Virus record (IMG/VR): IMGVR_UViG_3300014501_000021 | Location: 1 to 59,180 of that record | Length of the DNA stretch: 59,180 nt | Strand: one strand, 5' to 3' | Source: a virus | Part shown: piece after piece, positions 4,203 to 51,250 of the stretch | How positions within the stretch are numbered: the stretch's first letter is position 1 | How the letters are laid out: each line of letters opens with the position of its first letter | The notes under the pieces: model-generated | Told to the model about the DNA's origin: nothing | Seen by the model: the letters and a program-made list of their open reading frames with translations, nothing else | Database searches by the model: none | Made by a program: the position numbers and the translations under genes

Positions 4203-4211
4203 GGGTAATCT

Positions 4212-5333: not shown

Positions 5334-5336
5334 CTA

Positions 5337-7943: not shown

Positions 7944-7946
7944 ACT

Positions 7947-8813
7947 ATGCCATTTGTATACTATTACGACCCAAGTGACGGAGTTCCATCTGAATCAAAG
8001 GTAGGTGCTTTGACTGGAGCAGCGACCAATGTGCCTGGAGTTTTAACAAACGCTACTCCTCCTTCAGCTAACCAAGTTTTGGCTACCACAGATGCTAACG
8101 ATGCCACGTGGACTTCTACTCCTACCATTAATATTACAGGTAGTGCCTCCTTGGACTTGCCTCTGACAGGAGGATCGTTGTCGGGCGCAATATCCATTCC
8201 TAGCGGCGATTTCTATACGTGGACAACTGCGGGAGATCAAATCCCAGGTATAGGTGCTACAGCTTCCACGAACGGGATTATGGTTCTTCAAACGTATGGA
8301 GGAACCGGCGCAGTCTACATTAACCCTAATCCTTCTACAGGTACAGGTGGTCTTGTTGTATGTGCTGGAGGAGTAACGACCTTCTCTGCCGTTGGAGGCA
8401 TCAGTGGCGCTGGAGTCGTAAGCGGTACATCTCTTTCCGTATCTGGTCAAGTTGGAGGAGGCTCTGCAAATATTACGGGAGCAGTCCTCGGCGGTCAGTT
8501 TACAGACACGATTGATAACTTAACCCCAGGCAGTGGAAGTTATACTGTCAGCTGGGCGTCAGGCGCAATCGTTAATCTCGATTTAACTACGAGCACCACT
8601 ATTACTTTTTCTGGTGCGGTAGCTGGACAGACTCTAACATTCTTCTTAACTCAAGGCGGTTCCGGATCAAATACGGTTGCTTGGGCGAATACTATAAGAT
8701 GGCCCGGCGGTACTGCTCCGACACTTACAACGACCGAAAGTAAGACAGATGTTATATCTTTCTTTTATAATGGATCGAGCTACTTCGGATTCATTGGTGG
8801 ATTAAATTTCTAA
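7947..8813 (+). CDS. Short tail fibre protein, 288 aa
   Basis: The first 45 residues are unlike the other fibres (MPFVYYYDPSDGVPSES). They are followed by a degenerate linker (SANQVLATTDANDATWT) and one SLDLPLTGGSLSG shaft unit. The C-terminal 90 residues (IVNLDLTTSTTITFSGAVAG through DVISFFYNGSSYFGFIGGLN) resemble a beta domain that ends many phage fibres. It is 3 bases after the preceding stop and 1 base before the next start, so it belongs to the same translationally coupled fibre series. Probably a tip or accessory fibre; its receptor cannot be inferred. Confidence 0.75.
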   Translation: MPFVYYYDPSDGVPSESKVGALTGAATNVPGVLTNATPPSANQVLATTDANDATWTSTPTINITGSASLDLPLTGGSLSGAISIPSGDFYTWTTAGDQIPGIGATASTNGIMVLQTYGGTGAVYINPNPSTGTGGLVVCAGGVTTFSAVGGISGAGVVSGTSLSVSGQVGGGSANITGAVLGGQFTDTIDNLTPGSGSYTVSWASGAIVNLDLTTSTTITFSGAVAGQTLTFFLTQGGSGSNTVAWANTIRWPGGTAPTLTTTESKTDVISFFYNGSSYFGFIGGLNF

Positions 8814-8814
8814 T

Positions 8815-9456
8815 ATGCGTATTGGTCATCTCGTTATAGATGCGTACAAAGGCTTACTTCCTAATATATACTCAACGCCGGGGAGTTATTCTTTAACAGT
8901 ACCTTCTGGCCATACGCAAGCGACTATCCTCCTACACGGTCCCGGCGGAGGCGCCGGAGGAAGCGGAGATCCTTTGAATGAAGAAGGAGGATATTGCGGT
9001 GGAGGTGGAGGTGGATTTACCGCGGGATCTACGGGAACTTATGGTTATGGTGATCCTCCAGGAACTGCGGGAACTAACACTACTCTTTCACATAGTAGTA
9101 CTACTATAGCGATAGCAGCAGTTGGCGCCGGAGGTCAAGGAGGAAATGGTCCGGGTAATTCTGGTTTTCCAGGACCTTTCGTCGGAGGTGTTGGAGGCTC
9201 TGCCGGAACTAGTTCTGCATCAGGACTTACGCTAGTAGCGGGCGGAGGCTCGTCTGGCGGCGCTCCTGTTTTATTCAATGGTTCTGGAGGTTCTTCAGGT
9301 GACGCAGTAAGTGGCACAATTTCGGTTACTAACGGAGAAGTACTTACTATTGTCGTAGGAACAGGAGGCGGGGGAGGCGCGTGCTCGTACGCCGGTTTTT
9401 CTCCTCCTAAGGGTAATCCTGGCTCGTCTGGGTACGTGTCTATAACTTTTATTTAA
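8815..9456 (+). CDS. Glycine-rich tail adhesin, 213 aa
   Basis: A short N-terminus (MRIGHLVIDAYKGLL) and a small beta segment (YSLTVPSGHTQATILLHGPG) lead into a glycine-rich body with GGAGGSG, GGGGGGF, GGQGGNG and GGVGGSAG patches and a closing GYVSITFI strand. The layout (beta strand, glycine-rich helices, final beta strand) is the same as in the proteins at 4212 and 47618. It starts 1 base after the stop of the fibre at 7947. A fibre-tip adhesin with polyglycine-II packing is likely by analogy; this is inference from composition and context. Confidence 0.75.
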   Translation: MRIGHLVIDAYKGLLPNIYSTPGSYSLTVPSGHTQATILLHGPGGGAGGSGDPLNEEGGYCGGGGGGFTAGSTGTYGYGDPPGTAGTNTTLSHSSTTIAIAAVGAGGQGGNGPGNSGFPGPFVGGVGGSAGTSSASGLTLVAGGGSSGGAPVLFNGSGGSSGDAVSGTISVTNGEVLTIVVGTGGGGGACSYAGFSPPKGNPGSSGYVSITFI

Positions 9457-9457
9457 T

Positions 9458-9775
9458 ATGAAAATGATAAGATGGCTCGGAACAAATATAAGCTGGTTCT
9501 TCGATAAGCTAACAAAAGATTTAAACAAGCACAGGACTATACTGTGTTGGGTATATTCTATCTCATATCTGGTATTAGTTAGGTACTGTGTACTGACTAA
9601 TCCGTCGACAATGAATACAGCTATTATGACCACAGGCGGAGTTTGTGGTACGATTTTTTCAGCATGGGTAATTGGTAGCGCCCACGTTTCTGCTACGCGA
9701 ATTCAGTATCCAATGCCGGTTACACCCGGTAGTACAGGCGGCGATCCCGTAGATATGACCGACCCCGGATTCTAA
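9458..9775 (+). CDS. Small membrane protein, holin candidate
   Basis: A 105-residue protein with a basic N-terminal amphipathic stretch (KMIRWLGTNISWFFDKLTK), two hydrophobic segments (about residues 27-46 and 53-75) and a hydrophilic Pro/Gly-rich tail. Two membrane spans, this length, and a neighbouring single-span membrane protein at 9787 fit a holin or holin partner. It starts 1 base after the upstream adhesin stop. The endolysin is 41 kb away (51251), so the lysis genes would be split. It could instead be a virion or host-envelope membrane protein. Confidence 0.6.
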   Translation: MKMIRWLGTNISWFFDKLTKDLNKHRTILCWVYSISYLVLVRYCVLTNPSTMNTAIMTTGGVCGTIFSAWVIGSAHVSATRIQYPMPVTPGSTGGDPVDMTDPGF

Positions 9776-9786
9776 GGAGTATTTAA

Positions 9787-10131
9787 ATGGGTAGAGATCC
9801 AGACAGAGAGTGGCAGCTGCAAATGACTTCGTTAATTGCGGAAGTTAAAACTAATCAAGAAAATTTACATGTGACGTTAAATAATTATTGTGAAGCTACT
9901 AATAAGCGATTAGAGAAGATGGAGCACATCGTTATAGGAAATGGAAAGCCAGGCTTGTCCGAAGAGGTAAGAAGCCTCAAGGGTAAGTGGGCTGCTTTTT
10001 ATGGACTAGGTCTGCTCCTTCTATCCGGTTTGATTAATTACGCGGTAGAATCCGCTATCTTTAATAGACCAGTAGCTAGTTCACATGTGCCAGTAATAGA
10101 ATCGACAGCTAGTGCGGAAACGACAAGATAA
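9787..10131 (+). CDS. Single-span membrane protein with N-terminal coiled coil (XhlA-like layout)
   Basis: A 114-residue protein with an AAGGAG site about 7 bases before the ATG. Residues 1-65 are polar and helical with heptad character (QLQMTSLIAEVKTNQENLHV). One hydrophobic span lies at about 68-86 (WAAFYGLGLLLLSGLINYA), followed by a short polar tail. Small phage proteins with an N-terminal amphipathic helix and one late span (the hemolysin XhlA-like family) accompany holins. The layout agrees with that, but no diagnostic motif is visible, so lysis function is tentative. Confidence 0.6.
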   Translation: MGRDPDREWQLQMTSLIAEVKTNQENLHVTLNNYCEATNKRLEKMEHIVIGNGKPGLSEEVRSLKGKWAAFYGLGLLLLSGLINYAVESAIFNRPVASSHVPVIESTASAETTR

Positions 10132-10140
10132 GGAGATCCC

Positions 10141-10377
10141 ATGAAGAAATGGATAAGCAACGTTAAAGAATGGTTTAGAAAGCTTTTTGTAAAGGTAGAG
10201 ACTGGTGCGCTTGAAAGGATAGTTCGTGAAAAATTAGCAGCGAGTCCAATAAATTCGTGTGATCATAAGTTTGCAGTAAAGCAGGTATGGACTCGAGTAG
10301 CGACTAGACAGTTTGAGTTGCAGAACGAAATAACTTGCGTAAAGTGCAGTGATCGTAGAGTGGAAGCTATTAGGTAA
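10141..10377 (+). CDS. Small Cys-containing protein, 78 aa
   Basis: Starts with good spacing after AAGGAG (10131-10136). The N-terminal 35 residues are a basic amphipathic helix (MKKWISNVKEWFRKLFVKVE). The C-terminal half has CDH (Cys40, His42) and a CVKC knuckle (Cys66, Cys69) followed by SDRRVEAI, the pattern of a single small zinc ribbon in which the second knuckle is followed by a beta strand. It sits between membrane-protein and fibre genes. Function unknown; zinc binding is inferred from the Cys/His spacing. Confidence 0.6.
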   Translation: MKKWISNVKEWFRKLFVKVETGALERIVREKLAASPINSCDHKFAVKQVWTRVATRQFELQNEITCVKCSDRRVEAIR

Positions 10378-10380
10378 GTT

Positions 10381-10545
10381 ATGGTTTGCGAACTTTGCGA
10401 CAAGCCGTTTGACAAAGAGAAACGCAAACTAACCGTACGCGGTAAGATATTTTACGTGCATGATATGTGTTTAAGAAAGGCTACTAAGAGGCAGTTGGTG
10501 GCTAAAAAAATTATAAAGAAGGACGACTTCAGCTGGAGACTTTAA
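10381..10545 (+). CDS. Small zinc-binding protein, 54 aa
   Basis: ATG at 10381, three bases after the upstream stop, reading to TAA at 10543-10545. The sequence starts MVCELCDKPFDKEKRKL and has an HDMC pair 21 residues after the first CxxC, so CxxC-x20-HxxC, a LIM-like or treble-clef-like zinc site. The rest is Lys-rich (KRQLVAKKIIKK). No separate Shine-Dalgarno is evident, so re-initiation after the 10141 gene is likely. It is the second of two tandem small Cys proteins here. Function unknown. Confidence 0.6.
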   Translation: MVCELCDKPFDKEKRKLTVRGKIFYVHDMCLRKATKRQLVAKKIIKKDDFSWRL

Positions 10546-15408: not shown

Positions 15409-18261
15409 ATGGAACTTAATGGATCTCTAAATATTGACGCTAACCTAATTGTTAAGGGAACTGCTTCTCTTGACAACGGCGCTATCACTACTGATGGTTC
15501 TGGTAATATCAATACTACTGGATCTTTCACAGTAGGAGGTAATCCTCTTCCAGGGGCAGTTGGTTCCATGACTTCTTACGCGTTAAGCGGTACACCTGTA
15601 GGAGTTGCCTTTGATGGTATTAATATGTGGACAGCTAACTATGGTAGCAATACTATAGATAAGATTGGGCCTACTGGAGTTGTAACTACTTATAGCGGTC
15701 TTCAACCCAGCCCAGAAGCTATTGCTTTCGACGGTGTCAATATGTGGATCACTTCTCTCAGTGTAGGAGGATCCGGCCCAGGATTCGTGACTAAAGTTGC
15801 ACCAGATGGTACCGCAACTATTTATAGTGGTACTGGAACAAATCCGGTAGGTATTGCTTTCGATGGCGTTAATATGTGGACGGCTAATGTAGTAGGTCAG
15901 ACGCTATCTAAGGTGGCGCCTGACGGTTCGATGACTGCCTATGCGCTACCTACTAGCGAACCGTATGACCTAGCTTTTGATGGTACGAATATGTGGGTTA
16001 CGGATTACGCTACTGGCAATATAATGGTAGTTACGCCAGACGGCGGAGTTACAGTATATCCATCTCCAGGTGTAGGAACTCCTTACGCTATCGTCTTTGA
16101 TGGTATCGATATGTGGGTAATTTACACAAGTGGTGGGGGTAGTTCTCTAGTTAAGGTTGCGCCAGATGGTACGATGACAGTTACCCCAAATACTGTACAG
16201 TACGCGGATTATCTGTGCTATGATGGTACTAACTTGTGGACTAATTCTTTTGATGGTACTCATCGTATCGCTGTTAAAATTGGCCCAGACGATAGTCTAA
16301 CTTACTACGAAGCAGTAGGAGGTAGCTTAGCTGATATGGCTTTCGATGGTCTAAATATCTGGGCGGTCAGCGAAAACGATCACACCATTACCAAAATTGT
16401 AACAGCCTCTCCTGTCCGAAAACAGCCCGCAAATCTTTATGATTTCGCTCTCGCTTCCGCGCAACTTCCTAGTAGTGCTGCAGGACCGTCTGGCGGAGAT
16501 CTCAGTGGTACTTATCCAAATCCAGTTGTAGCGCAATCTTCGGCGGCAACATTTACGGTAACAGGCGCCCTCGCCGTAGATGGATCAACTTCGCTTGACA
16601 GCGGCACTATAACTACAAATGGTAGCGGTACTCTAACTGCAGCTGGATTAATTACTTCAACACTTCAGGTGACTACAGGAGTAACTTCTGGCGACGTATT
16701 AACTTCCGACGCATCTGGAAATGCAACTTGGCAACCCGCTTCTAGTAGCGCGCCCGGCGGAGTAACTGGAGATATTCAATATAATAACGCGGGAGTATTC
16801 GCGGGAGACACTTCCTTTACTACGAATGGAAGTGGAGGTGTAAGCGTTAATAGCTTATCTATTGGAATTACTCAAGTACTCGACTCAAGTCGCAACTTGA
16901 GTGTTAATAACCTAAGTGTTGGTGGATTATTTTCAGTTTCTAATTTAACTATAAACCAAAATATTACAGTTGATGGTTTAGTAGTATATCAACCCAATAG
17001 TATGGCTCCTGGCGCTGTGCAAGGAGGGGTTTACTATAATTCAAGTCTTAATGCATTGGAAGTTTCGCTAGACGGCTCTACATTCACTCCGATACTAACT
17101 TCTTCATCCAGTATTGCCGCAGCTAATATTTCAGCAGGTACAGCTGGGATTAACATTACAGGTAATGCTGCTACTGCCAACGCACTGAACTCTGCTACGA
17201 CAGTTGTCAACGTTAGTTCCGCGACAGCTCCTACAACTGGACAAGTTCTTACGGCTACTTCAGGTACTGCAGCAACTTGGCAGACTCCTGGAGGATCAAG
17301 CGGTACTCCTGGTTTCACAAGTGTTCTCGGTACGGGAGCAGATGGAGCAGTTGTCATTTCTTCAAATACTGCATTAGCTTCAACATACAACTTTGGAACT
17401 CAAGGAAACGTCGCCGTCAAAAATTATTCTAGCTTAACCGTTAATAACGGATCTACTCTTAGCTTAGCATCTGGAGTAAATGGAATGATTCTTTACTGCA
17501 CAGGAACTGTAACGGTTAACGGTACTATTACCGCGAGTGGACAAGGAGCAACAGGCGGCGTAAACACAGTTGGAAATAACGGCGGCGAAGTTATTGGATG
17601 GGCGACACCTTCTTCAGCACTATTTACGCAATTATTCGCAAATCCGTCTGCTCTCACTGGATCAGATAGCTATCAGGGTTTCGCAAGCGGTAACGCAATC
17701 ATATCGGGAGCAGGGAGTGCAGGAAACAGTGGTAACCCTGGCGGCGCGCACGGCGTAGGTCTTGGAGGACCCGCTCCGTCTGCGGCCCAGCTCGCAATCT
17801 TTAACAACATGCCTGCTTACGCTTACTCTTGGGGAATATTACTCACGGGAGCAGGAGGCGGCGGCCTTGGTAACGGAGAAACGGGACAAGGTGGAAGTGG
17901 CGGTGGATTCGTTATGATCTTTTGCAATAGCCTCATTATTGGCGCGACAGGAGTGATATCTGCCAACGGCGGAAGCGGTCCTACTAGCGGTGCACAGGGT
18001 ATTCCTGGAGCGGGTGGAGGAGGAGCAGGTCTTATTGTTCTTGCGTACGAAACTATCTCTAATAGCGGCTCTCTTCAGTGTAACGGTGGAGCAGGCGGAA
18101 GCGTTGCGGCAGGTGTTGCTCCTGGCGGCGCTGGCGGAACTAATACGACTATCAACGGAACTCCTACTTCAGGATCTAACGGAGTCACAGCAACTGGCGC
18201 GGATATCTCAGCCAGCGGTGGTGGCGGATCAGGCGGACCTATCGTCGGAATTGTAATCTAA
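15409..18261 (+). CDS. Tail fibre, 950 aa, with one seven-bladed propeller and glycine-rich tip
   Basis: The start is 5 bases after the preceding stop with no strong Shine-Dalgarno. An N-terminal SLDNGAITTDGSGNI unit leads into a propeller at about residues 55-335 with seven blades, each marked by an FDGxNMW-type motif roughly 40 residues apart. Then come GGDLSGTYPNPVV, SLDSGTITTNGSG and GQVLTATSGTAATW linkers. The C-terminal 300 residues contain a beta-helix-like region (NNGSTLSLASGVNGMILYC) followed by glycine-rich segments (GAGGGGLGNGETGQGG; GGGGSGG near the end). This combines the propeller of the 10551 fibre with the tip type of the 4212 adhesin, so the fibres exchange modules. Confidence 0.85.
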   Translation: MELNGSLNIDANLIVKGTASLDNGAITTDGSGNINTTGSFTVGGNPLPGAVGSMTSYALSGTPVGVAFDGINMWTANYGSNTIDKIGPTGVVTTYSGLQPSPEAIAFDGVNMWITSLSVGGSGPGFVTKVAPDGTATIYSGTGTNPVGIAFDGVNMWTANVVGQTLSKVAPDGSMTAYALPTSEPYDLAFDGTNMWVTDYATGNIMVVTPDGGVTVYPSPGVGTPYAIVFDGIDMWVIYTSGGGSSLVKVAPDGTMTVTPNTVQYADYLCYDGTNLWTNSFDGTHRIAVKIGPDDSLTYYEAVGGSLADMAFDGLNIWAVSENDHTITKIVTASPVRKQPANLYDFALASAQLPSSAAGPSGGDLSGTYPNPVVAQSSAATFTVTGALAVDGSTSLDSGTITTNGSGTLTAAGLITSTLQVTTGVTSGDVLTSDASGNATWQPASSSAPGGVTGDIQYNNAGVFAGDTSFTTNGSGGVSVNSLSIGITQVLDSSRNLSVNNLSVGGLFSVSNLTINQNITVDGLVVYQPNSMAPGAVQGGVYYNSSLNALEVSLDGSTFTPILTSSSSIAAANISAGTAGINITGNAATANALNSATTVVNVSSATAPTTGQVLTATSGTAATWQTPGGSSGTPGFTSVLGTGADGAVVISSNTALASTYNFGTQGNVAVKNYSSLTVNNGSTLSLASGVNGMILYCTGTVTVNGTITASGQGATGGVNTVGNNGGEVIGWATPSSALFTQLFANPSALTGSDSYQGFASGNAIISGAGSAGNSGNPGGAHGVGLGGPAPSAAQLAIFNNMPAYAYSWGILLTGAGGGGLGNGETGQGGSGGGFVMIFCNSLIIGATGVISANGGSGPTSGAQGIPGAGGGGAGLIVLAYETISNSGSLQCNGGAGGSVAAGVAPGGAGGTNTTINGTPTSGSNGVTATGADISASGGGGSGGPIVGIVI

Positions 18262-24684: not shown

Positions 24685-25536
24685 ATGGCCAACTATTCAT
24701 GGATCGGTCCCATCATCATCAAACGTGTTCGGGATGCGATTGTCCTGAACTTACGTCGACAATTTTCGTATGACACGATGTATCCCTATGTAGAGACTGT
24801 AACGTTTACAGCTCTTCCAGGTGTAGTGAATCTTGATCTTGAATCGCCGTACGTAACAGGCGCTGGCACTAATTTTACAAAAACTCTTAACGCTGGAAAC
24901 AGAATTCAGTTTGCAAGTGATGTTAATTATTACTACGTCCTATCCGTTGCGAGCGATACTAGTTTAACGTTGACGACTAATTATACGGGACAGACAGTTT
25001 CGAGCGCGACAATAAGTATTGCGTCTAACGTTGTGGTAAATTTTGATTGTACGCGTATAGCCATCAACGACGCAACGCCTCAAGACTATTACTACTTACC
25101 TGCACTTGTAGTAAAGACGGCTGCTGGTGAAGAACATCGTTTTCTACAAGAAGATTTTTTCGAAGAATTTACAGATGTGAATGGAAACCAAAGCGAACGC
25201 AGAGGCGCTCCTATGGATATCAACGTAACGATAGAGGCGTTAGCTATAGACGTAATCACAAGAGATCAGCTGGTAGACCGCTTATACGAAAAGTTCAAAA
25301 TTATTACGACGGATCTTGCAGAAAATGGTATAGGTATCTTAAAGACGTCGATACTTCCTGACGATCGAAAATTCGAAAATGATCGTTGGTGGTATACATC
25401 CAGTATTTCGATGAAGTTGTACGCAGAGTGGTTGGATGAGGATATCGCAGCATTGAATTCGTCGATGACGGGCGTTAAGACGGGAATCTACACAGCACAT
25501 GGCGTTGATCAACGTTTCCAGATCAAAGATAGTTAA
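24685..25536 (+). CDS. Tail-terminator/neck protein candidate with inserted beta module, 283 aa
   Basis: Residues 1-40 and 113-283 make up an alpha/beta protein (IKRVRDAIVLNLRRQFSYDT at the start; VNFDCTRIAINDATPQDYYY; and APMDINVTIEALAIDVITRD) of the size and place expected for a tail terminator or neck protein just upstream of the sheath. Residues about 42-112 are an inserted module, VTGAGTNFTKTLNAGNRIQF then SVASDTSLTLTTNYTG. The same module is found in the sheath (about 270-332) and in the 1273-residue baseplate protein (about 1085-1145). The start lacks a Shine-Dalgarno and is 7 bases after the previous stop. Confidence 0.65.
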   Translation: MANYSWIGPIIIKRVRDAIVLNLRRQFSYDTMYPYVETVTFTALPGVVNLDLESPYVTGAGTNFTKTLNAGNRIQFASDVNYYYVLSVASDTSLTLTTNYTGQTVSSATISIASNVVVNFDCTRIAINDATPQDYYYLPALVVKTAAGEEHRFLQEDFFEEFTDVNGNQSERRGAPMDINVTIEALAIDVITRDQLVDRLYEKFKIITTDLAENGIGILKTSILPDDRKFENDRWWYTSSISMKLYAEWLDEDIAALNSSMTGVKTGIYTAHGVDQRFQIKDS

Positions 25537-25565: not shown

Positions 25566-28500
25566 ATGGCAGACACAGCACCTTCTTTAGCGGCAGAGAA
25601 TGCCGAAAGCGGCGTAGTAGTTACATACGTACCCGCTACTAACCAGCCTTCTGTTCCGGGTGGTATACGTGTAGTCGGTCTTATCGGCACGGGATTGAAT
25701 TACAAGAATGTTACCGTTAAGGTAACTCGTGGGTCCGTTCTTAATGGACTTGATCCGCTAACTCCTGTGGCACTATCGCTACCTAGCACGATCACTGATG
25801 AAAACTATGTTGTCTACGCGTTAAATGCTGATTATACTCTTTCATTACCTGAGAGTATCTCTGGCAGCTGGACTCCTGTATCTCTTATAACCGGAATCCT
25901 TGCTCTTAATATTAACGGAGACGGACAGCAGACGATCATGCTTAATCTCGCGGATTCGGGTGGAGCGCAGATCGCAGCAGACATCCAGACTAAGGTGCGC
26001 GCTCTTGTACCTTTCAACTCGTCCAACGCTCTTGCGTATAGCGGCTTCTTAGCCTCTTATAATAATGGACAATTCACGCTAGAGTCTGGAACATTTCCTA
26101 TCGGGTCCGTTGTCGTCAACCCTGCAATCGGTGACGCGGGTATTTTAAATCTAGGAGTCGGTAATCCTGGCGCGGTAGAGACGGCTGGCGGAGGAGTTAA
26201 CTGGGGTCCTGAAGGATTTGCGTTCGATACTGGATCTATTAACGTAGGTGTCGGAGCATTCCCTTACGGAGTTAACCTTGACGGACAGACCTTTGAAGTC
26301 TACGCCAACGGCAGCCAGATGGCGCAGCTCGTTGACTTCGTTGGAGTTAACATTCGCCCTTCCTTCTTTACAGCATTAACAGGTTCTGTATCTCTTACTG
26401 TTGGATCAACAACGGTAACGGGTACGGGTACTACCTTCCTTTCACAGTTAGCTCCTGGCGATATTGTTCAGTTTACAGGAGATCCTACTCATACGTATAC
26501 TGTTGTAAGCATCGCAAGCAATCTCAGCATGCAGCTTGCTACACCTTACGCAGGACCTGCATTAGCTCTTGGATACGCTCTCGTTGCTGCAACTGCCATC
26601 ACGGGATCCGCTGGAGTAGGCACTATCATCAACGGCGATTTAGACATCGCCCCTAACGACCTTACTTCTGTCACTAACTTCCCGCCGGGTGTTGTTAACG
26701 GCGGACAGCATGGTGATGACGCAACCGCCATCGCGGCTCAAGCGGCGGCCTTGGCAGCATTCACAGCCGGGCAGACTGCGGGTGCATCTGGTACTACAAT
26801 TCCATCAACCTTAGATGGACAGACTCTTCTTCCTGGAGCGTATCAGTTTGCGTCGGGCACCGCGACATTGGCTACATCAGGTCCCGGAACTCTTACGTTC
26901 AACGGTCCTTCATCCGCAAGCTGGATCATCTATACAGCTACTACGTTAACGACGGGAGCAGGCGGTACACCTACAATGTCGTTTATTGGTGGATGTTCTG
27001 CGGCAAACGTTCTATGGATTATTGGATCTTCTGCTACACTTAACAGTGGAGTTTCTGGTACTTTTGGTGGAAATCTTATCGCGTATACAAGTATTACGGT
27101 TACTTCAGGTGGAATTGTTAACGGCTCATTGGCAGCGCTGAACGGTGCTATCACTCTATCAGCTCCTACTATCGTTAATGGCTCTTCCGCAAATACCGTT
27201 GTAAGTCTTGGTACTGGAATTATTCAGCAGATGAATGCTGCATTCTCTCCTGTAATAACGTTTAATTCTACTATCTCCTCAGCGTCATATACCGTTACTC
27301 TTCCACAGTTGCCTCAAGCGGGAGATACATTAATTGTATACGTAGGTTCTTCAAGTCCTACTCTTTATACGTGGACTGCGGGAGTACCGCTAGCTACTCA
27401 GTACAACTTGAATCCAGCAACAGGAATCGTAACGTTCAATGCAGCTGCGGCAAATCAATTCGTTGCAATCACTTACGCAGTAGCACCTACGTTAGTAGCG
27501 TCTGTTGATATCGAGGGTAGCGCAAACTACATCAAGGTATCCACTACTTCTAATGATAACGCGGTAGTCCAGATCGGTAATGGTACTGTTAACGCAAGCC
27601 TTGGATTCACAGCAGGTACTCAAGTAGCTGGTCCTAAGGAGCCTGCTTACCTTACGACTTATTCTTTCACGTATGGAACACCAAAGGTATCAACGCTCAC
27701 GCTGGACGATTACGGTCCTACTCTGTACACTGACTTAACAAGTCTTGTTGGAGCGTATGGTCCTGTTGCAACGACAAACGATCTCGCGGGATCTCCTTAC
27801 TCTGTAACTAATACGCTCCCGCTAGGTGCTCAGATTGTCTTTACAAACAGCGCAAACACTGGTGGAATTATGGCAGTACAGTGTAATCCAGCAGATGGTA
27901 CTCCGTTAGCTCAGTTCCAGGCGGCTCTAAATAAGCTAGCATCTGTCCCAGGCGTTAACATCGTTGTATGTTTGACTCCGATGTCTCTTTTGTATCCGTC
28001 TATCGTAGCCCACGTCGTTAACTGCAGTCAGCCGCTAGATGGTCTTTTCCGCACGGCTGTCATGGGGTTTGATCCGACAACAACTACAATTGAGTCAGCA
28101 ATCAATCAGGCGGAAGGAATTGCAGCAAGTGGTAATGGAAGACGCTTCTTAATGCCATGGCCTGCATCTGTCAATATTGCTCTTGCTAACAACACGAACG
28201 CACAACTTGATGGATCCTTCCTTGCAGCTGCTATCGCAGGACTACGTATCAATGGAAACAACGACGTCGCTACTCCGTTACTAAGACAGCAGCTATATCC
28301 GTTCACAACCGCCGCTGTTAACCTTCTTCGCACAGATAAGCTCGAACTGCGCGACGGTGGAGTAACCGTTGTAGAACTTCAGAACGGACTTGTTCGTATC
28401 ACTGAGGATACAACGACCGATCGTTCAACAATTGATAACCAGGAATTCTCTGTAACTGAAATCGTCGACTTCGTTGCAACGACTTGTGCCACACTTCTTA

Positions 28501-28727
28501 ACTCAATCTTCATCGGCGTTAAGATTCTTTCAAATACTACAAGTATCGTTACAGCGACAGTGCAGGTACTTCTTAATAACTTGATCGCCTTGAACATTCT
28601 TACAGACTATCAAAACGTTCAAGTTCAGGTTAACCCGCTGGACCCTAGACAGATCGATATCTCATTCGAAGTCGCTCCTGTATACGGTCTTAGATACATC
28701 TCCGTCACCTTCTCACTAGAGCAGTAA
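25566..28727 (+). CDS. Tail sheath protein, 1053 aa, with inserted domains including DUF3494-type ice-binding domain
   Basis: AGGAG lies 9 bases upstream. The C-terminal half is a contractile-tail sheath: QLYPFTTAAVNLLRTDKLEL, RDGGVTVVELQNGLVRITED, then TTDRSTIDNQEFSVTEIVDF and the closing strand ISFEVAPVYGLRYISVTFSL. The N-terminal region (residues 1-100) also fits. Between them lie insertions: a hook-IN-like module (about 108-205), the VTGTGTTF module (270-332), a DUF3494-like ice-binding domain (340-540), and a further beta module (about 560-640). Usual sheaths are about 400-700 residues, so the excess is explained by these insertions, which would project from the tail surface. It is followed directly by tube genes. 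Confidence 0.9.
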   Translation: MADTAPSLAAENAESGVVVTYVPATNQPSVPGGIRVVGLIGTGLNYKNVTVKVTRGSVLNGLDPLTPVALSLPSTITDENYVVYALNADYTLSLPESISGSWTPVSLITGILALNINGDGQQTIMLNLADSGGAQIAADIQTKVRALVPFNSSNALAYSGFLASYNNGQFTLESGTFPIGSVVVNPAIGDAGILNLGVGNPGAVETAGGGVNWGPEGFAFDTGSINVGVGAFPYGVNLDGQTFEVYANGSQMAQLVDFVGVNIRPSFFTALTGSVSLTVGSTTVTGTGTTFLSQLAPGDIVQFTGDPTHTYTVVSIASNLSMQLATPYAGPALALGYALVAATAITGSAGVGTIINGDLDIAPNDLTSVTNFPPGVVNGGQHGDDATAIAAQAAALAAFTAGQTAGASGTTIPSTLDGQTLLPGAYQFASGTATLATSGPGTLTFNGPSSASWIIYTATTLTTGAGGTPTMSFIGGCSAANVLWIIGSSATLNSGVSGTFGGNLIAYTSITVTSGGIVNGSLAALNGAITLSAPTIVNGSSANTVVSLGTGIIQQMNAAFSPVITFNSTISSASYTVTLPQLPQAGDTLIVYVGSSSPTLYTWTAGVPLATQYNLNPATGIVTFNAAAANQFVAITYAVAPTLVASVDIEGSANYIKVSTTSNDNAVVQIGNGTVNASLGFTAGTQVAGPKEPAYLTTYSFTYGTPKVSTLTLDDYGPTLYTDLTSLVGAYGPVATTNDLAGSPYSVTNTLPLGAQIVFTNSANTGGIMAVQCNPADGTPLAQFQAALNKLASVPGVNIVVCLTPMSLLYPSIVAHVVNCSQPLDGLFRTAVMGFDPTTTTIESAINQAEGIAASGNGRRFLMPWPASVNIALANNTNAQLDGSFLAAAIAGLRINGNNDVATPLLRQQLYPFTTAAVNLLRTDKLELRDGGVTVVELQNGLVRITEDTTTDRSTIDNQEFSVTEIVDFVATTCATLLNSIFIGVKILSNTTSIVTATVQVLLNNLIALNILTDYQNVQVQVNPLDPRQIDISFEVAPVYGLRYISVTFSLEQ
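26583..27185 (+). other. DUF3494-like ice-binding domain inside the tail sheath
   Basis: Residues about 340-540 of the sheath. Family hallmarks are in order: TAITGSAGVGTIINGDLDIA, VTNFPPG, a helical segment with AAQAAALAAFTAGQTA, LDGQTLLPGAYQFASGTATL, TLTFNGPSSASWIIYTATTL, a Cys-Ser-Ala-Ala-Asn-Val-Leu-Trp-Ile-Ile-Gly-Ser-Ser motif, GGNLIAYTSITVTSGG and NGSLAALNGAIT. DUF3494 proteins such as TisAFP and ColAFP fold as a beta-solenoid with a long helix and bind ice. Ice binding here is inference. Confidence 0.85.
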
Positions 28728-38174: not shown

Positions 38175-38651
38175 ATGGATTTTCTTTTACAGACGCTTCA
38201 AAATTATAATGATCCTTATAGTAATCCTGTTTCGAATGCTTTATCCAATACATTTTGGGGTCAAGGCACAAACGATCTAATTGTCGACACTACGGGCGAT
38301 TTTGCTACGGTGGACGGCCTTAACAATTTGGCCCAATCGATGATGAAGATTATTACAACCGAGAGGGGCGCTAATATATTCACACCGATGTACGGCTCTA
38401 CTCTTAACGATTTTGTCGGCGCCGACATTAATATCGATGAGCTTAGAGCTAACGTTAAGACCGACATGATTGACACTCTTCGTATATACCAGTTTATTAA
38501 TCAAGGAAATCCAGATCTAAATGAGCAGATCGATACGTTACAGTCTCTTGCTGTCAACTTAATCCCAGGAATTAACGGAATTAACGTTAGTTTTCAAGTA
38601 ATTACTCGGTCGGGACTCCAAGCGGGTAGTACTATACAAGTCGAAGGATAA
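38175..38651 (+). CDS. Baseplate wedge protein, gp25/gpW-like, 158 aa
   Basis: AAGGAG lies 8 bases before the ATG. The central segment, NLAQSMMKIITTERGANIFT followed by PMYGSTLNDFVGADINID, is the gp25/gpW (GPW_gp25) pattern, in which a helix ending with ERG is followed by a P-x-YGS-L motif. It then continues with NVKTDMIDTLRIYQFINQGN and a closing strand. These proteins anchor sheath to baseplate wedges and are conserved in contractile injection systems. It is next to the J-like wedge gene at 38655, the standard pairing. Confidence 0.85.
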   Translation: MDFLLQTLQNYNDPYSNPVSNALSNTFWGQGTNDLIVDTTGDFATVDGLNNLAQSMMKIITTERGANIFTPMYGSTLNDFVGADINIDELRANVKTDMIDTLRIYQFINQGNPDLNEQIDTLQSLAVNLIPGINGINVSFQVITRSGLQAGSTIQVEG

Positions 38652-38654
38652 TCT

Positions 38655-40109
38655 ATGATTCGCACGGTAACTCAAGTAATTAACAGCGCTGTTTCATATA
38701 TCCAAGGCGTCATCCCTGGACTATCTCTTTTGGCAGGTACTGTCGGCAGAGATGTCGTAGTTGAATCCCCCGCTCAAGAATTTGGATTAGTATGGACCGA
38801 GCTGGGCCGCGTTGAGTCTATGCAGCTTATGAATGATCCTACAGCATTCATTAATAATGAGCTTGACGACTTAGCTTCTAGCTTTGGATTAACGAGAAAT
38901 CCCGGTACTGCTTCACAGGGTTCAGCAATTTTTGCGCTTACTACTTTCTCGACAGCATCTTCCAATGTTGTCATTCCTGTCGGTACCGATATCTCTACTC
39001 AGTCTAGTCTTTCTAATAATGTAGTAATTTCTTTCGTGACTACCGCAACAGCTACTTTCGTGGCCGCGAACGCTAGTGAATATTTTAACCCGCTTGATGG
39101 TTTGTATGAATTAACGGTGCCTATCCAAGCCTCCGCAATAGGATCTGCTAGCAACGTCGCGGCTGATACTATCACGGTGTTAACAACTTCTATTCCAGGT
39201 GGCCCTACTGTTAACAACCCTAATCAAACAGCGGGAGGAAGCGATGCGGAATCAGACGCGTCACTGCTATCTCGTATTCAAACTAAGCTAGCGGGTACTG
39301 CTATGGGTACGCCTAACGGCATCCTTAGCTTTGTCGACGCCAACCCTAACGTTATAGCCTCTTTACTTGTTGGCCCAACGGATCCACTATTAGTGCGTAG
39401 CTCGTATGGTAACGCTGCTGACGTATATATCATTGGAGATATTCCAACGCCTGTCACAGAGAGCCAGACGTACATAGCGGGTATTAACACTTACGTGTTG
39501 GAGCAACAGCCTGTAGAGGCTGGGTCTGTTAATTCTATTATTCTTGGAACCGTTGGCGGCGTAGCGTTCAATTTTATACAGAATACTAACTTCGTAGTTA
39601 ACCAAGATAATACGACGTCGTATGGAGGATCGTCATCCGCCCAGACTTCTATTACGTTTCTTGGTTCGCCTTTTCCGGACGCCAACACCGCTTTCACAGT
39701 TAACTATTCTATCAATAGTTTAATCGTTACGTTGCAGACTGCAATCAATTCAGACGCTAACCAGATCATCGGTACGAATATTTTGATAAGAGAGGCTATC
39801 GAAATTCTTGTTAACGTTGGTGCCTACATTACTGTCTACCCTGGTTTCACAAAAGCGAATGTAACTGCCGCCGCAGAAAATAACGTTGAAACTTTGTTGA
39901 ATACATCGACGTTAGGAACGTCAATTAGTGAGTCCGATATTATTGCGACTATCCAAGATACGCCAGGAGTGCAGGCGGTTCAGATACCTATCTCCATAGA
40001 AATATCAACTCCTACGATGCCGACGTTTACATCCGTCTCTACGCTTACAACTGCAGAGAACGAATATCTGCGACCGAACCCTGCGCCTAACTCAATAGCA
40101 ATTACTTAA
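38655..40109 (+). CDS. Baseplate J-like wedge protein (gp6/gpJ family), 484 aa
   Basis: Three bases after the gp25-like gene. Baseplate-J features: an N-terminal helical domain with NNELDDLASSFGLTRNPGTA, the VIPVGTDISTQSSLSNNVVI strand, the AIGSASNVAADTITVLTTSI segment that typically follows GxxGNV, then GGSDAESDASLLSRIQTKLA (the conserved GG-D-ES-D-LR/R region) and a C-terminal domain with ILVNVGAYITVYPGFTKANV. In T4 and P2-like phages this protein forms the wedge ring that opens on contraction. Two or three inserted residues aside, its length fits the family. Confidence 0.9.
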   Translation: MIRTVTQVINSAVSYIQGVIPGLSLLAGTVGRDVVVESPAQEFGLVWTELGRVESMQLMNDPTAFINNELDDLASSFGLTRNPGTASQGSAIFALTTFSTASSNVVIPVGTDISTQSSLSNNVVISFVTTATATFVAANASEYFNPLDGLYELTVPIQASAIGSASNVAADTITVLTTSIPGGPTVNNPNQTAGGSDAESDASLLSRIQTKLAGTAMGTPNGILSFVDANPNVIASLLVGPTDPLLVRSSYGNAADVYIIGDIPTPVTESQTYIAGINTYVLEQQPVEAGSVNSIILGTVGGVAFNFIQNTNFVVNQDNTTSYGGSSSAQTSITFLGSPFPDANTAFTVNYSINSLIVTLQTAINSDANQIIGTNILIREAIEILVNVGAYITVYPGFTKANVTAAAENNVETLLNTSTLGTSISESDIIATIQDTPGVQAVQIPISIEISTPTMPTFTSVSTLTTAENEYLRPNPAPNSIAIT

Positions 40110-40740: not shown

Positions 40741-43700
40741 ATGTCCTTATACTCAACAATTCTATATACTGGTCCCTACGGCCCTACCAATCTCTATACA
40801 GGTAGCGGAGGAGACCAACTTCAAGACCTCGATTTCTACAGAACAGAAGCCGACGGCGAATACGTATTTCACTGGACATTTTTACAGTCTTTTATAAGTC
40901 CGGCGATCGATAATCTTGATTATGAATTGCAGTTGGATACAAACGAAGATTTTACGTTACCTACTTCTTTTGAAACATTCACTGAAACACCTATAAATAT
41001 TATTGCTCAGGGTTTTTCTGAGTCAGCCGTATACGCTGCGACAAATGCGAGTGGAGAGATTTTATATTTCCAGATTGACGGCGATGGATTTAGAAATATT
41101 ACGCTCGGAGTTGATGTAGGCGGAGCAGCTGTTGCTGCGGATATTCAAGCTAAGGTGAAAGCGTTAACCGCTAATAACCCTGCCCTGCAGGCATCTTATT
41201 CTAATTTTACCGCTGTATTCAATGTTACCCATAACACATACACGTTGACATCAGGCGGTACATCATACACAAGTCAAGTCACTGTATATCCTGGCCCTGC
41301 AGCTTCATTATTATACTTGGGCCGTTCTAACGGAGGATATGAGATAAGAGGAAATACTTATATCTTATCACAGCTTCCCGGCGGAATCTTGTCAGTAACA
41401 GATAGCTCTGGGCTAGTTTACCTTGACGTTTCACAGACTACAAATAGTCCTGCGCCGGGGCAGTACGTTACGAGCTTACCTCTGGGGCAGATATCCTTTA
41501 ACTCTGTAAATGTTCCCGACACAATAACTGTTGTCTATTACCCGTCTACAAGCGCGCCTATTCTTGACTACCAAGATGGTAACGTAGAGAAGGGTTTTAC
41601 TGTTCCGGTACCTTCGCGAATAGCTAGTGCTCCCGTTGTCTTCTACGCTCGAGTAGCTATCAAGCAAGGTAACTCGCTAGGCCCTTGGTCGGATACTCTG
41701 AAGGTATTAACGATCCCGAACGTCATATTGGAAACTGCCAGCCGTCTGTTAAATGCGCTTCCAGATTTTCATGTATATCCTACTGACGATCAATTTAGAC
41801 TTGCGCGTTCTCTTGTTGACGGAATAATCTATGCGCCGGGTAATAGCGTACCTCTGCCTAATTACTTGAGTAATATTGCTAAAGTATACATGGCTTATGC
41901 TAATGAATTCGATACAGAGTATCTTGAAAAAGAAAACTGCATAAGAGATGTTAGACAGGATAGGGTACGAGACGACCGCATTGGTCCTATCCTAGGATCT
42001 TTATATAAGTACCCACAGCCTGCTAACATGGTTAATGTGGATTATCGTTTAATTCTCAGCAACATGAAAGCGGCATCGTTAGACGGTGCTACGTACGAAG
42101 CGGTTAAGCTGGTTGGCGCAGCATTTACTGGAGTCGATCCGACAATATTCCCAATATCAAAAATCCTTAATTTTATAACAGCGGGATTTGATCCAGAGAA
42201 TACTGGCCCTTTTTATGATGGAAATGTCCAGAATATAACTGTTAATTCTAGCTTCCAAGCAACGCTCACTAATGGGACTGCAAACGATCCGATTATTCCT
42301 GGATCGCTTATATCGGGCCCTGAGTCGCTTGTTGCCGTAACGCCGACGATACCGTTAACGTCTCCCTATACTATTACGCTATCGCCTACTCCGGCTAGCG
42401 TTCCTACTATACCTGGGTATACTTTTGTATCCACCACAACATTAGCTAATACGGAAACAGATGTTATTAGCAATACCTTTCCGTACATTATTACTTTACA
42501 GTTTCCGCCTCTTAATATCCCTACGATTTCGGGATACTCATATACAACAGGGGTTCCTTCGCCCACGCAGTTTACTGTTAATTTTACCACAGGCGTTGTC
42601 ACGTTTAACGCGGCGGTTGCGAATACATCCGTTACACCGTCATACTTGTATGCCTCTGCGCTGCCATTATCTGGACAATTTAACGTTAACTTTTTAACAG
42701 GTGTTCTTACGTTCAATGCCGCTCAGGCGGGAATGACTCCTTCGATTACGTACATACCGAATTATCTTAGTGTTCTTTCCGGAGAGACTCTCACAATTAA
42801 CGTCGATAGCCTTGGCCCGCAAACTGTCACATTGGAAGGAGGGCCGTATACAACTAAGGATCAGGTTGCTGCAGCTATCGAAGCGGCTGTACAAGCTCTC
42901 GGAGCTCCTCCAGCGGTTACCTTCTTAGGCCTTTTAGCATACTCTACTATCACTAACGTTGGTTTTACTGTAGTCACAGGGGATGTAGATTTATACCCAG
43001 GTACTTCTGTAACAGGTTTTCCTCCTGGAACTTTCTCTGGTACGTTAAATATAGCAAATCCGGTTGCGCAAAACGCAATGACGGTAGCTACCGCAAAGTA
43101 TACTTCAGGACAAACTGCAGGTCTCGCGGGTACTACAATTCCTTCAGTACTTGATGGACAGACTCTAGTGCCGGGAGCGTATCAGTTTGCGTCGGGTGCT
43201 GCGACGTTAGCGGCGTCTGGTAACGCGTCTATGACGTTCAACGGTGCAGGTAATTACATTATATACACCGCGAGTACTCTTAAGACAGGAGCTGGCGGAA
43301 CAGCTACTATGAATCTTACGGGTGGAGCTACTGCGGCTAATATCTTATGGGTAGTTGGATCATCTGCTACTCTTAATATCACTAATGCAGGTGCAGGAAC
43401 CTTTGAAGGCAATGTAATCGCGCAAGCGAGCATTACTACAAACGGCGGAACGATAGATGGGTCACTATCGGCTCTTACAGGTGCGATCACTATTAGTAAT
43501 GCTACTGCGGTGCTGGGCGCAGGCGGCCCCGTTTCTCCTAGTGAAGAAACGGCCTATACGGACTTCTTGGCTAATTATAATTCTGCTACAGATCAATACA
43601 CTCTTATTTCCGGAAATCAGAACCCCACATCGACTAGCACTGTTGTTGTGACGGGAGGTACTGCTGCCACCCAGTTAAGCCTATTAGCAGGTGATGGAGC

Positions 43701-44562
43701 GATTCAGACGTACGGATTAGCTTATGTAACTCCGACTCCGTCTGGCCCCGCGGTTCCAACCGCTGGACAATTTACTAACAACATACTCACTAGCAATGGA
43801 AGTCTGTTAACATTCCCCGCGATTGAAGTAGGCAACCAGCACACAGTACTTTTTTATTCAGCTAATGAAATTTTTACGTATCTTCCTGGAAAGTATACAG
43901 AAACGCTCGTAGTTCCGTCTGTTGCTCCTTATACAGTAACTACATTATACCCTTCCTGCGATATTCCTGTCGTTGCAAAATATGATGCAGGAACTGTATC
44001 TACTGTGCATAATACGAATACTATGACTGGATCTGGAACCTCCTTTTTAACAGATTACTCGCCAGGCGATACTGTCGCATTTTCAGGACAGATGGGAGAT
44101 AGTATTACGTATACTGTCGCGTCCGTTGCTGATGATTTTAATTTAACGGTAACATCTAGCTATACTGGATTAACAACTTCAGGTCTTTTGAGTAACTTAA
44201 GTAGAGGCTACCAGTTTGTACCAACTCCTACAGTAGTGGTACCTCCGGCCGCTTTACCTCCTCCAGTGGTGCTCCTAGCGGATCAATGGACGGATAATTT
44301 TGATTCTCCTGCAACTTTAACGTTTAACGCGTCGTTCGTGAGTAAGGTAGTAGTTGTATCATATACGATAAGGGTTCCTATCCAAGACATAGATACGGTT
44401 AAAGACCATCCTATATTATTTAGCGGTACCGAAGCAGGATTCGGCATTGAAATTATCTTAAACAATCCGGGGCTATTCACTTTGGACCTAACGACCATAG
44501 CATTCCTAATGACCGAAATACTACCAGCGACAACTAAATTCATTCTGACGGAAGTAGAATAA
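40741..44562 (+). CDS. Multidomain baseplate protein with tail-protein-I-like core and DUF3494-type domain, 1273 aa
   Basis: Order: N-terminal beta/FN3-like part (1-95); hook-IN-like module (about 105-205); GQYVTSLPLGQISFN beta module (235-270); a second FN3-like strand set (285-325); a core at about 330-500 (TASRLLNALPDFHVYPTDDQ; LPNYLSNIAKVYMAYANEFD; AASLDGATYEAVKLVGAAFT) resembling phage tail protein I/wedge proteins; three YTITL...GYSY...GQFTVNF modules (535-675); a hook-IN-like module (685-985) split by the ice-binding-like domain (about 730-926); the MTGSGTSF module (1085-1145); and a C-terminal alpha/beta end (KDHPILFSGTEAGFGIEIIL). Tail protein I is usually about 200 residues, so most of this is acquired. 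The start has no Shine-Dalgarno and is one base after the prior stop. Confidence 0.75.
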   Translation: MSLYSTILYTGPYGPTNLYTGSGGDQLQDLDFYRTEADGEYVFHWTFLQSFISPAIDNLDYELQLDTNEDFTLPTSFETFTETPINIIAQGFSESAVYAATNASGEILYFQIDGDGFRNITLGVDVGGAAVAADIQAKVKALTANNPALQASYSNFTAVFNVTHNTYTLTSGGTSYTSQVTVYPGPAASLLYLGRSNGGYEIRGNTYILSQLPGGILSVTDSSGLVYLDVSQTTNSPAPGQYVTSLPLGQISFNSVNVPDTITVVYYPSTSAPILDYQDGNVEKGFTVPVPSRIASAPVVFYARVAIKQGNSLGPWSDTLKVLTIPNVILETASRLLNALPDFHVYPTDDQFRLARSLVDGIIYAPGNSVPLPNYLSNIAKVYMAYANEFDTEYLEKENCIRDVRQDRVRDDRIGPILGSLYKYPQPANMVNVDYRLILSNMKAASLDGATYEAVKLVGAAFTGVDPTIFPISKILNFITAGFDPENTGPFYDGNVQNITVNSSFQATLTNGTANDPIIPGSLISGPESLVAVTPTIPLTSPYTITLSPTPASVPTIPGYTFVSTTTLANTETDVISNTFPYIITLQFPPLNIPTISGYSYTTGVPSPTQFTVNFTTGVVTFNAAVANTSVTPSYLYASALPLSGQFNVNFLTGVLTFNAAQAGMTPSITYIPNYLSVLSGETLTINVDSLGPQTVTLEGGPYTTKDQVAAAIEAAVQALGAPPAVTFLGLLAYSTITNVGFTVVTGDVDLYPGTSVTGFPPGTFSGTLNIANPVAQNAMTVATAKYTSGQTAGLAGTTIPSVLDGQTLVPGAYQFASGAATLAASGNASMTFNGAGNYIIYTASTLKTGAGGTATMNLTGGATAANILWVVGSSATLNITNAGAGTFEGNVIAQASITTNGGTIDGSLSALTGAITISNATAVLGAGGPVSPSEETAYTDFLANYNSATDQYTLISGNQNPTSTSTVVVTGGTAATQLSLLAGDGAIQTYGLAYVTPTPSGPAVPTAGQFTNNILTSNGSLLTFPAIEVGNQHTVLFYSANEIFTYLPGKYTETLVVPSVAPYTVTTLYPSCDIPVVAKYDAGTVSTVHNTNTMTGSGTSFLTDYSPGDTVAFSGQMGDSITYTVASVADDFNLTVTSSYTGLTTSGLLSNLSRGYQFVPTPTVVVPPAALPPPVVLLADQWTDNFDSPATLTFNASFVSKVVVVSYTIRVPIQDIDTVKDHPILFSGTEAGFGIEIILNNPGLFTLDLTTIAFLMTEILPATTKFILTEVE
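42928..43518 (+). other. DUF3494-like ice-binding domain inside the 1273-aa baseplate protein
   Basis: Residues about 730-926. It starts LGLLAYSTITNVGFTVVTGD, continues with VDLYPGTSVTGFPPG (very close to the family consensus GVSPGTAVTGFPPG), a helical part (AMTVATAKYTSGQTAG), LDGQTLVPGAYQFASGAATL, NGAGNYIIYTASTLKTGAGG, NILWVVGSSATLN and ASITTNGGTIDGSLSALTGA. The domain splits a hook-IN-like module. It shares identical 23-base and 31-base DNA runs with the other two copies. Confidence 0.9.
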
Positions 44563-44563
44563 C

Positions 44564-47500
44564 ATGCAGAAAGAACAATTCTTTGAAGATCAACCAATAC
44601 TCGTAAGCGATCTAGAGCTTGCGCAAAGTAGTAAGGAGAGCGCTATCGAACAGCGTCAGCGCGATCTTCTAGATCCTGGCGTCATCATCGGTTCTCAATT
44701 ATTGGGCGAAGTTAGCGCTATGCAAGTTACTAACTCTGCTGACGGGGTAACAAGCGTCGGTTTATTTATTACCGTTAATACCGGTGTCGCCGTCTCCCCT
44801 ATAGCTGAGCGTATTATTATCCCTTCTTTAATAACCTATAACGTGGCGAACCCTATAGCCGTATCAGACAATGGAATTGGTGGAACGGTATTAACTCCGC
44901 AATCTTCTGGGTCTTTAAATGTGCCTGTAATGGATCGATCAATTCCCGGAGGTACAATTAACTGTATCTGGGTAGGTTATCTAGAAACAACCGATACAAC
45001 TGTATTTACAATAAGCGAGGGAAATAATTCCCGCTTATTTGTTAAGCACGACGACGGTTATACTATTGCGGTAACAAGTGCTCCTTCTAACGGACCGGCT
45101 GCTTACACAAATCCTGACCCGTCTGTTTATGTCTTAGTTGCGCAGGTTACTACGAATGGTGGGCTCGTTACATTAATCAACCAAACTAACTTCCTACAAC
45201 CTGCGACGTTTAGTGGAACTATACCGTCTCTTTCACCGTATCAGCTATCATTAATTGGATCTATTCTACCTAATCTTCCGCCGGACTTAGATAGACCTAA
45301 TAGTATTCCAGCTATTCCAGGCTTTACTTACACCGCAGGCGCACCTGCAGCGGGACAATTCTCCGTCAATTTCACTACAGGAACCTTAACGTTTAATGTA
45401 GCAAATGCAAGCACAGCTATAACTGCGTCGTTTCTGGTTTTGAATGTATGTATTCAAAACAGCGTCACTACAGGTAGTACGGTGGGAGCACAGTTGCACT
45501 TGAACGAAAAGACGTTAGTGTATGCTCTTGGATCGGAAGTCACACTAACAGGTCATGTCAACGCTTACGGATCAGGCGTTGTTGGCCCTAATAACCCTCA
45601 CGGAATAGGCGCTGCTGACATCGGATTAGCTAGTGTTAACGAGCTTGGTATCGTATTGGCGGATCAGGGTCTCGTAACTCCCACAGGAAATGCTAGCTCT
45701 ACTACTTCATCTTTATCTCCTTCAGCAGTTTTCCAGGCGTTGCCTCCGTCGGCTAACCTTGTAACTATCGCGCCACTCATTGCAGGCGAGTATGTAAACT
45801 TAAGTGGAAGTATCGTTTCAGCTACTAATATCCCTATTGCGACAACATTCAGCTTTGTAAATCCAAATACGCTAGCACCTCTTCCTGCGGGCACTTATTA
45901 CTTTTACATAGATCCTACGCTACTTACTGTACAACAAGGTACTTCATTACCTACAGGTGCTTACCCTATAGCTTCTATTATGTGGAATGGAGCTACAGTT
46001 GTACTACCAGTAACTGATCTTCGCACATTTGGAGTTATCGGTAAAAATAATCTTCGATTAGAAGTTTTGTTAGGTTTGGCGACGGGAGCGGCTACTGATA
46101 ATAGAACAACTACTCTTTATAGTGCTAAAGTTATTGGGTCAAATATTGCAGTAGCGCCTTACTCTACCTTTGCGGTAGGAGGCTATACGCTAGATATAAC
46201 AGTAAATGGTAACCCAGAGTCAGTAACATTTACAGGCACACTGGGTTCTAATTTATTAATATCGCAAGTTGTTGAACAAATCGAATCGGCTATCCCTAGT
46301 ATAACTGCAGTGGCACTAGATAATCAATTAAAGCTTTTATCGTCGGAATCGATAGCGGTTACAAGTGGCACTGCAGCCACTGTGCTTGGTTTTACGGGTG
46401 TCGCTACCGCAGGTACTTCTGTATCTGGAGTAGGACCCGCAACTACCGCTGCGCCCTCCGGCCTGACGTTCTATGTAAATATCAACGGAGACGGTGCTCA
46501 AGCAGTTAATATCCCGGATACGGCTACTACTGGAGCGTTAGTTGCGTCGGATATGCAAGCTGCTATCGAGGCTCTTATTGCGTTTAACCCAGGCAACCAA
46601 GCGGCTATCAATGCTACAACTGTTTCCTATTCTGCAGGAACAGGATATGCTTTACTTGCTTATTCAGCTATCACAGGCTCTACAGGGATTGGATCTACGG
46701 TTAACGGCAGTCTTTATATTACCCCTACCGCTTTAACGGGTATTACTAACTTCCCTCCTAGCACGTATAGCGGTGTTGAGCTTGGAGGGTCGGCACCCGC
46801 AGCTGTGGCGGCTATGACAGCAGCTAATACTACCTACTCTAACGTTGTATTGGCATCTTCAGGATATACAACTATCTTGCCTACTCTTGATGGTCAGATA
46901 TTAACTCCAGGAGGGTACAACGCAGGTGCCGCTCATTTAGCTACTTCTGGACCAGCTACTCTTACATTCAACGGCGCGGGCAATTATACTATCTATTGTT
47001 CAAGTACTTTGGTGACAGGTGCAGGAGGTATCCCAACTATGAATCTTACGGGAGGAGCTACCGCTGCTAATATCCTATGGGTAGTTGGATCATCTGCTAC
47101 TCTTAACTCAGGTACGGCGGGTACTTTTCAAGGAAGTGTTATAGCTAATGCTAGCATTACGGTTACCGCAGGAGGTACTATTAATGGATCGTTAGCAGCT
47201 CTTAACGGGGCCGCTACTCTTACGGGTACTACGATAGTTAATGCGCCAGCGTCTGGTCCTGCTGAATACATAATTACCTCAGGTACTGTAGGATCAAATA
47301 GCTCAGTCGTTATCACAGGCGCGGGAGCAGCTACACTAGAATTAGGGGTGCCGAATGGTGGTACTGAAACTACCGGAAGCGGCGGTTCAACGGATAGCGG
47401 TAACATTAAAGAAATCTTGATAACCGGAAGTACTTCTTCTACCGGTGTTGCGGGGCAGATTATCCCGGCTGAAATGGATTTAATCTATAATGGAAGCGGG

Positions 47501-51249: not shown

Positions 51250-51250
51250 T

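Follow-up and report, generated by a model that had tools for sequence, protein, structure and literature searches.

The DUF3494 ice-binding proteins AnpIBP (7bwx) and EfcIBP (6eio) are solenoids braced by a helix, with an FPPG cap and a B-face rich in Thr, Ser and Ala. In AnpIBP the residues of the ice-binding B-face have been listed, and mutation of S153 or T156 brings the activity to 17% (PMC7277481). The contractile tail sheaths of phages such as 812 and T4 have a core built from both ends of the chain, with extra domains between them. These extra domains, mostly Ig-like beta-sandwiches or helical, are placed at a distance from the tube, and a role in stability or adhesion has been suggested for them; ice binding is unmentioned (PMC9230969). 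DUF3494 genes encoded by viruses are known from Arctic vOTUs (PMC11515562) and from Hyperionvirus (BFVD) as stand-alone proteins. Those of the Arctic viruses were read as auxiliary genes that help the host, and a fusion with a sheath is undescribed there (PMC11515562).

The locus described here lies in a metagenomic virus record of 59,180 bases, given as one strand and hereafter called the window. Its tail sheath carries a domain similar to AnpIBP and EfcIBP in family, fold, cap and B-face. However, these two are separate cellular proteins, whereas the phage domain is built into a protein of the virion. Similar to the sheaths of phages 812 and T4, the core is formed by both chain ends and the additional domain lies between them.

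The earlier note, made from the DNA letters only, knew of no described phage sheath of this kind, and our searches are in agreement with this. No literature naming DUF3494 together with phages, or tail sheaths together with ice binding, was found, subscription papers and preprints being mostly outside the scope of the search; for PF11999 and phages, the search gave only the work on Arctic viruses (PMC11515562), and the papers retrieved for tail sheath and antifreeze appeared unrelated by title and abstract. Neither the sheath domain nor a canonical-type viral copy matched any of 50,697 phage records; therefore, there is no isolate to cite. Sheaths and DUF3494 are each of known kinds; what is new, as far as checked, is that the two are combined, that this recurs, and that a permuted form, described below, exists.

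General features of the window and its tail sheath gene

Positions 359-1360 of the window encode a major head protein (PHROG 2522, 4.5e-32). A Baseplate_J gene is present at 38655-40109 and matches to baseplate PHROGs at 38175-38651, so that baseplate genes lie near the sheath, as in a myovirus. The Baseplate_J gene and the major head protein indicate that these are the structural genes of a phage with a contractile tail. Among the tail-region genes, a 950-aa protein (15409-18261) has a match to a Virginiamycin B lyase-type propeller (PF24684, 5.9e-14). An M15-type peptidase, likely an endolysin, is encoded at 51212-51892 (PF08291, 1e-10).

The sheath gene encodes 1053 aa (Table 1). Its C-terminal part, which holds the sheath core, matches PHROG 2839 (1.6e-32) and PHROG 279 (1.3e-23), and residues 961-1050 match PF17482, the sheath C-terminus. 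By tblastn, the product resembles proteins annotated as sheaths in Rhodococcus phage E3 and in mycobacteriophages. Judged from its sequence, the product is a contractile-tail sheath, and the carrier protein had been recognised correctly in the earlier note. A PHROG profile match was not found for the first ORF 3' of the sheath (196 aa). The order of this ORF and the following one of 175 aa is kept in two relatives, L002 and L161. The sheath (26382-26582, residues 273-339) and the protein encoded upstream of it (24685-25536) have a small beta module in common, which matches tail-fibre PHROGs 1980 and 2712; for the copy in the sheath, there is a further match to 23gd, a distal tail protein of solved structure.

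Table 1. Features of the tail region of the window, with residue numbers of the sheath where given
Feature	Position	Strand	Basis and remarks
Tail sheath gene with insert	25566..28727	+	1053 aa; PHROG 2839, PHROG 279, PF17482; tblastn to annotated sheaths
Approximate insert extent	26550..27203	+	residues 329-546 versus empty-site sheath of L161; alignment with L002, L161
DUF3494 / Ice_binding domain	26583..27173	+	residues 340-536; PF11999; AlphaFold; Foldseek to 7bwx, 6eio
B-face strand b1 TAITGS	26592..26609	+	residues 343-348; mapped on AnpIBP
B-face loop TSVT	26664..26675	+	residues 367-370, immediately before FPPG; mapped on AnpIBP
Long helix alongside solenoid	26721..26786	+	residues 386-407; DSSP of model
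B-face strand b2 ATLATS	26862..26879	+	residues 433-438; mapped on AnpIBP, loosely aligned
B-face strand b3 TTLTTG	26940..26957	+	residues 459-464; mapped on AnpIBP
B-face strand b4 SSATLN	27027..27044	+	residues 488-493; S153/T156 equivalents; mapped on AnpIBP
B-face strand b5 TSITVT	27087..27104	+	residues 508-513; mapped on AnpIBP
B-face strand b6 GAITLS	27144..27161	+	residues 527-532; mapped on AnpIBP
Candidate tail tube ORFs, 196 and 175 aa	28736..29869	+	position only; gene order as in L002, L161
Baseplate genes	38175..40109	+	Baseplate_J 5.2e-21; PHROG 975
Second DUF3494 copy	42934..43506	+	in 1273-aa ORF 40741-44562; PF11999
Third DUF3494 copy	46655..47236	+	in 1014-aa ORF 44564-47608; PF11999

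DUF3494 domain in the tail sheath

The sheath carries a complete, folded DUF3494 as an extra domain in its non-core part. The claim of such a domain at residues of about 340-540 was borne out by the match to PF11999 (E 3.7e-27, 95.8 bits, against a Pfam gathering cut-off of 28.7 bits), and the motifs quoted in the earlier note are present in the translation. The closest PDB sequences are the ice-binding proteins 6eio (2.5e-20) and 7bwx (9.4e-20). The domain lies inside the sheath reading frame, unlike a stand-alone auxiliary ice-binding protein with a gene of its own.

In the AlphaFold model of the sheath, computed from an alignment of 15 rows, most of residues 340-540 had pLDDT values of about 90-98. 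According to the model and DSSP, the domain is a beta-solenoid braced by a long helix, as the earlier note had expected of the fold, and Foldseek aligned it with 7bwx (TM 0.85, rmsd 2.1) and 6eio (TM 0.80). The remainder of the sheath was modelled poorly (mean pLDDT 52, pTM 0.39), and the alignment is shallow there; therefore, we make no claim on the orientation of the domain along the tail.

Ice-binding-type B-face

The residues equivalent to S153 and T156 of AnpIBP are S488 and T491 in the aligned sheath copy. Counted over five strands, with the loosely aligned strand b2 and the loop left out, and assigned by alignment rather than from coordinates, 20 out of 20 outward residues of the sheath copy are Thr, Ser, Ala, Gly or Asn, and 50% are Thr; the comparable B-face figure is 68% in AnpIBP and 84% in EfcIBP. 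Among 30 phage copies, small residues make up 96% at B-face positions versus 60% elsewhere, and the entropy is 0.72 bits at the B-face versus 1.46 bits elsewhere (p 1e-4). The solenoid fold may account for part of this conservation, and Thr and Ser are also favoured on the same face in those DUF3494 proteins that come from ice-free habitats (PMC12337378). For both reasons the B-face supports ice binding but does not prove it.

Boundaries of the insertion and its empty site

A natural empty site was found in L161, whose sheath of 778 aa is 69% identical in the sheath core and keeps both flanks, with about 15 residues at the point where the window has DUF3494. Judged against L161, the insert is a little wider than the range given in the earlier note. 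About 80 residues located shortly after the insert in the window are likewise absent from the L161 sheath. Sheaths that are 60% identical and have their own DUF3494 in frame are encoded on contigs L001 and L002, from two other metagenomes. The G+C content of the domain is 0.51, compared with 0.44-0.49 in other parts of the gene. The scan of a genome collection with the domain gave six weak cellular matches, and no host or donor was identified from it.

Since the window comes from a metagenomic virus record, the assembly may be asked whether a host ice-binding gene was mis-joined into a phage sheath, a circumstance that the earlier note had named as fatal to its reading. We consider this extremely improbable. 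A single open reading frame spans sheath and domain, the identical architecture is present in the contigs of two other metagenomes, independent cases occur in a second sheath family, the G+C content of the domain is close to that of its flanks, and cellular relatives are few and weak. A mis-join or chimera is rejected on the basis of the matching contigs L001 and L002, the alignment with L161 and the G+C content.

Recurrence in other sheaths and circular permutation

The earlier note described a single insertion. That insertion is real, but the phenomenon is recurrent, extends to several proteins, and includes circularly permuted copies. The sheaths of a second group, which is divergent and has lengths of about 900-960 aa, match PHROG 279 at 2e-22 to 4.5e-28 (seven tested), and in this group DUF3494 is circularly permuted, with the helix and strands b2-b6 first, followed by b1 and the cap. 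With BLAST, the N-part of the window domain aligned to residues 355-398 of L069 and the C-part to residues 197-346, whereas the opposite order was obtained with L102. L068 (7382-10213) and kindred sheaths carry the permuted DUF3494. In the AlphaFold model of L068, the same chain matched the sheath of phage 812 at 6e-14 and an ice-binding protein at 1.1e-5.

The scan with the sheath core revealed relatives free of the domain. Their sheaths are mostly about 600-750 aa long, and some share 86-87% core identity with L068. Alignment of L068-type sheaths with these relatives shows a clean insert. The sheath of L102 has a canonical-order DUF3494 at yet another site. A scan with a two-sequence sheath-core alignment returned known relatives only. 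PHROG 2839, searched over 46 records, matched in G002 only, since sheaths of the second family are assigned to PHROG 279 instead.

In the tree, the phage copies form a group of their own, with one long-branched Bacteroidota row among them, and the permuted copy of L092 groups with cellular-type domains. A single origin of all permuted copies was considered and is unsupported, as these copies are scattered in a tree in which many branches are weak. At least three insertion sites are present across two sheath families. Taking the family of the window, the permuted second family and the site in L102 together, sequence comparison indicates that tail sheaths have probably gained DUF3494 on at least three occasions.

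Further DUF3494 copies in the same phage and in other viral proteins

Beyond what the earlier note reported, the window contains two more copies of DUF3494, and many further viral contigs also carry the domain. The second and third copies of the window, both in tail-region proteins, are 55-56% identical to the sheath copy, and the relative G002 also has three copies. By eye, each of the two lies inside a small repeated domain of the form INGDGxQ...ADIQxKVRAL...LTSG, a repeat type that is also present in the sheath of the window. L069 has a weak, sub-threshold match to Flagellin_IN.

The domain scan revealed 54 viral loci with DUF3494. Forty-five records were reached through it; PF11999 was present in 45 out of 45, in many of them in multiple copies. 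Other carriers of DUF3494 are very large ORFs and proteins about 520-540 aa in length. L012 encodes a 2335-aa protein (3411-10415) that combines Baseplate_J with DUF3494. In L072, a 523-aa protein (6423-7994) combines a permuted DUF3494 with a chitobiase C-terminal-like domain; it is encoded among apparent head genes, as read from the ORFs only, and is possibly a head fibre.

Among contigs of at least 30 kb reached through the sheath core, extra copies were present in three out of four with a sheath DUF3494 and in none out of 22 without (Fisher p 0.0015), as counted by hand from tables, with phage kinship ignored, many contigs being fragments, and some of the domain-free contigs of the scan checked. 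With the clade of the window and the contigs found through DUF3494 added, a set thus partly chosen by the domain itself, the counts are 8/9 and 0/23. Because of kinship, fragments, incomplete checking and this choice, we read the accompaniment of sheath copies by further DUF3494 copies in the same phage as a trend.

Possible function of the domain

Each assembled sheath subunit would bear one ice-binding-type solenoid, and the two further tail-region proteins of the phage would add one each. Well-studied myoviruses have well over 100 sheath subunits per tail. At such numbers, even weak binding by a single domain would become multivalent. Given the stoichiometry of the sheath, display over the full length of the tail may fairly be inferred, and we likewise infer exposure on the assembled tail, affinity for ice and a benefit for the phage. 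The likeliest working would be multivalent surface binding, in which the virion would keep its flat and uncharged B-face of Thr, Ser and Ala accessible. The putative target ranked first, with about an even chance, is ice or the ice-water boundary; it is the best guess because the B-face matches solved ice-binding sites and exceeds the remainder of the domain in conservation. Attachment to ice would keep virions near hosts concentrated at ice boundaries. Alternatively, the benefit could be less freeze-thaw damage to the virions.

Ranked second, and rather unlikely in our view, is a general adhesin, a solenoid that weakly binds host polysaccharide, extracellular matrix or minerals, with ice irrelevant. 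Extra sheath domains, for example Ig-like ones, have often been proposed as adhesion aids (PMC9230969), DUF3494 proteins are termed ice-binding or substrate-binding and are present in ice-free places (PMC12337378), and copies are also found in tail-fibre-like and baseplate-like proteins. Nevertheless, the face is uncharged and flat, with a Thr pattern as in ice-binding sites, and it is conserved above the remainder of the domain, while a receptor-binding face is expected to vary among phages. Less probable still, and ranked third, is a structural cement, in which the domain would stabilise the virion by packing on its neighbours along the tail, with the B-face as the packing surface. Close relatives build their sheaths without the domain, the same domain type recurs in other tail proteins with different neighbours, and there are several insertion sites and two chain orders, all of which argue against a cement, although an extra domain of the phage 812 sheath touches the adjacent subunit (PMC9230969) and in AnpIBP crystals the ice-binding faces are packed against one another (PMC7277481).

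With ice as the preferred target, a wider reading falls slightly short of an even chance, namely that several distant phage lineages independently made their sheaths into putative ice-binding filaments, partly via permutation, with well over 100 sites per virion.

Biological meaning

Even without ice activity, the fact that sheaths repeatedly gained the domain, with two chain orders and several insertion sites, provides a clear natural experiment on what the exterior of a contractile tail tolerates. Should the domain bind ice, we would know of no earlier virions with an ice-binding surface of their own, and the sheath would be a natural multivalent ice-binding filament, useful in cryobiology. 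In that case the virus ecology of frozen soils and ice would become directly testable. These virions may stick to ice, or survive in it.
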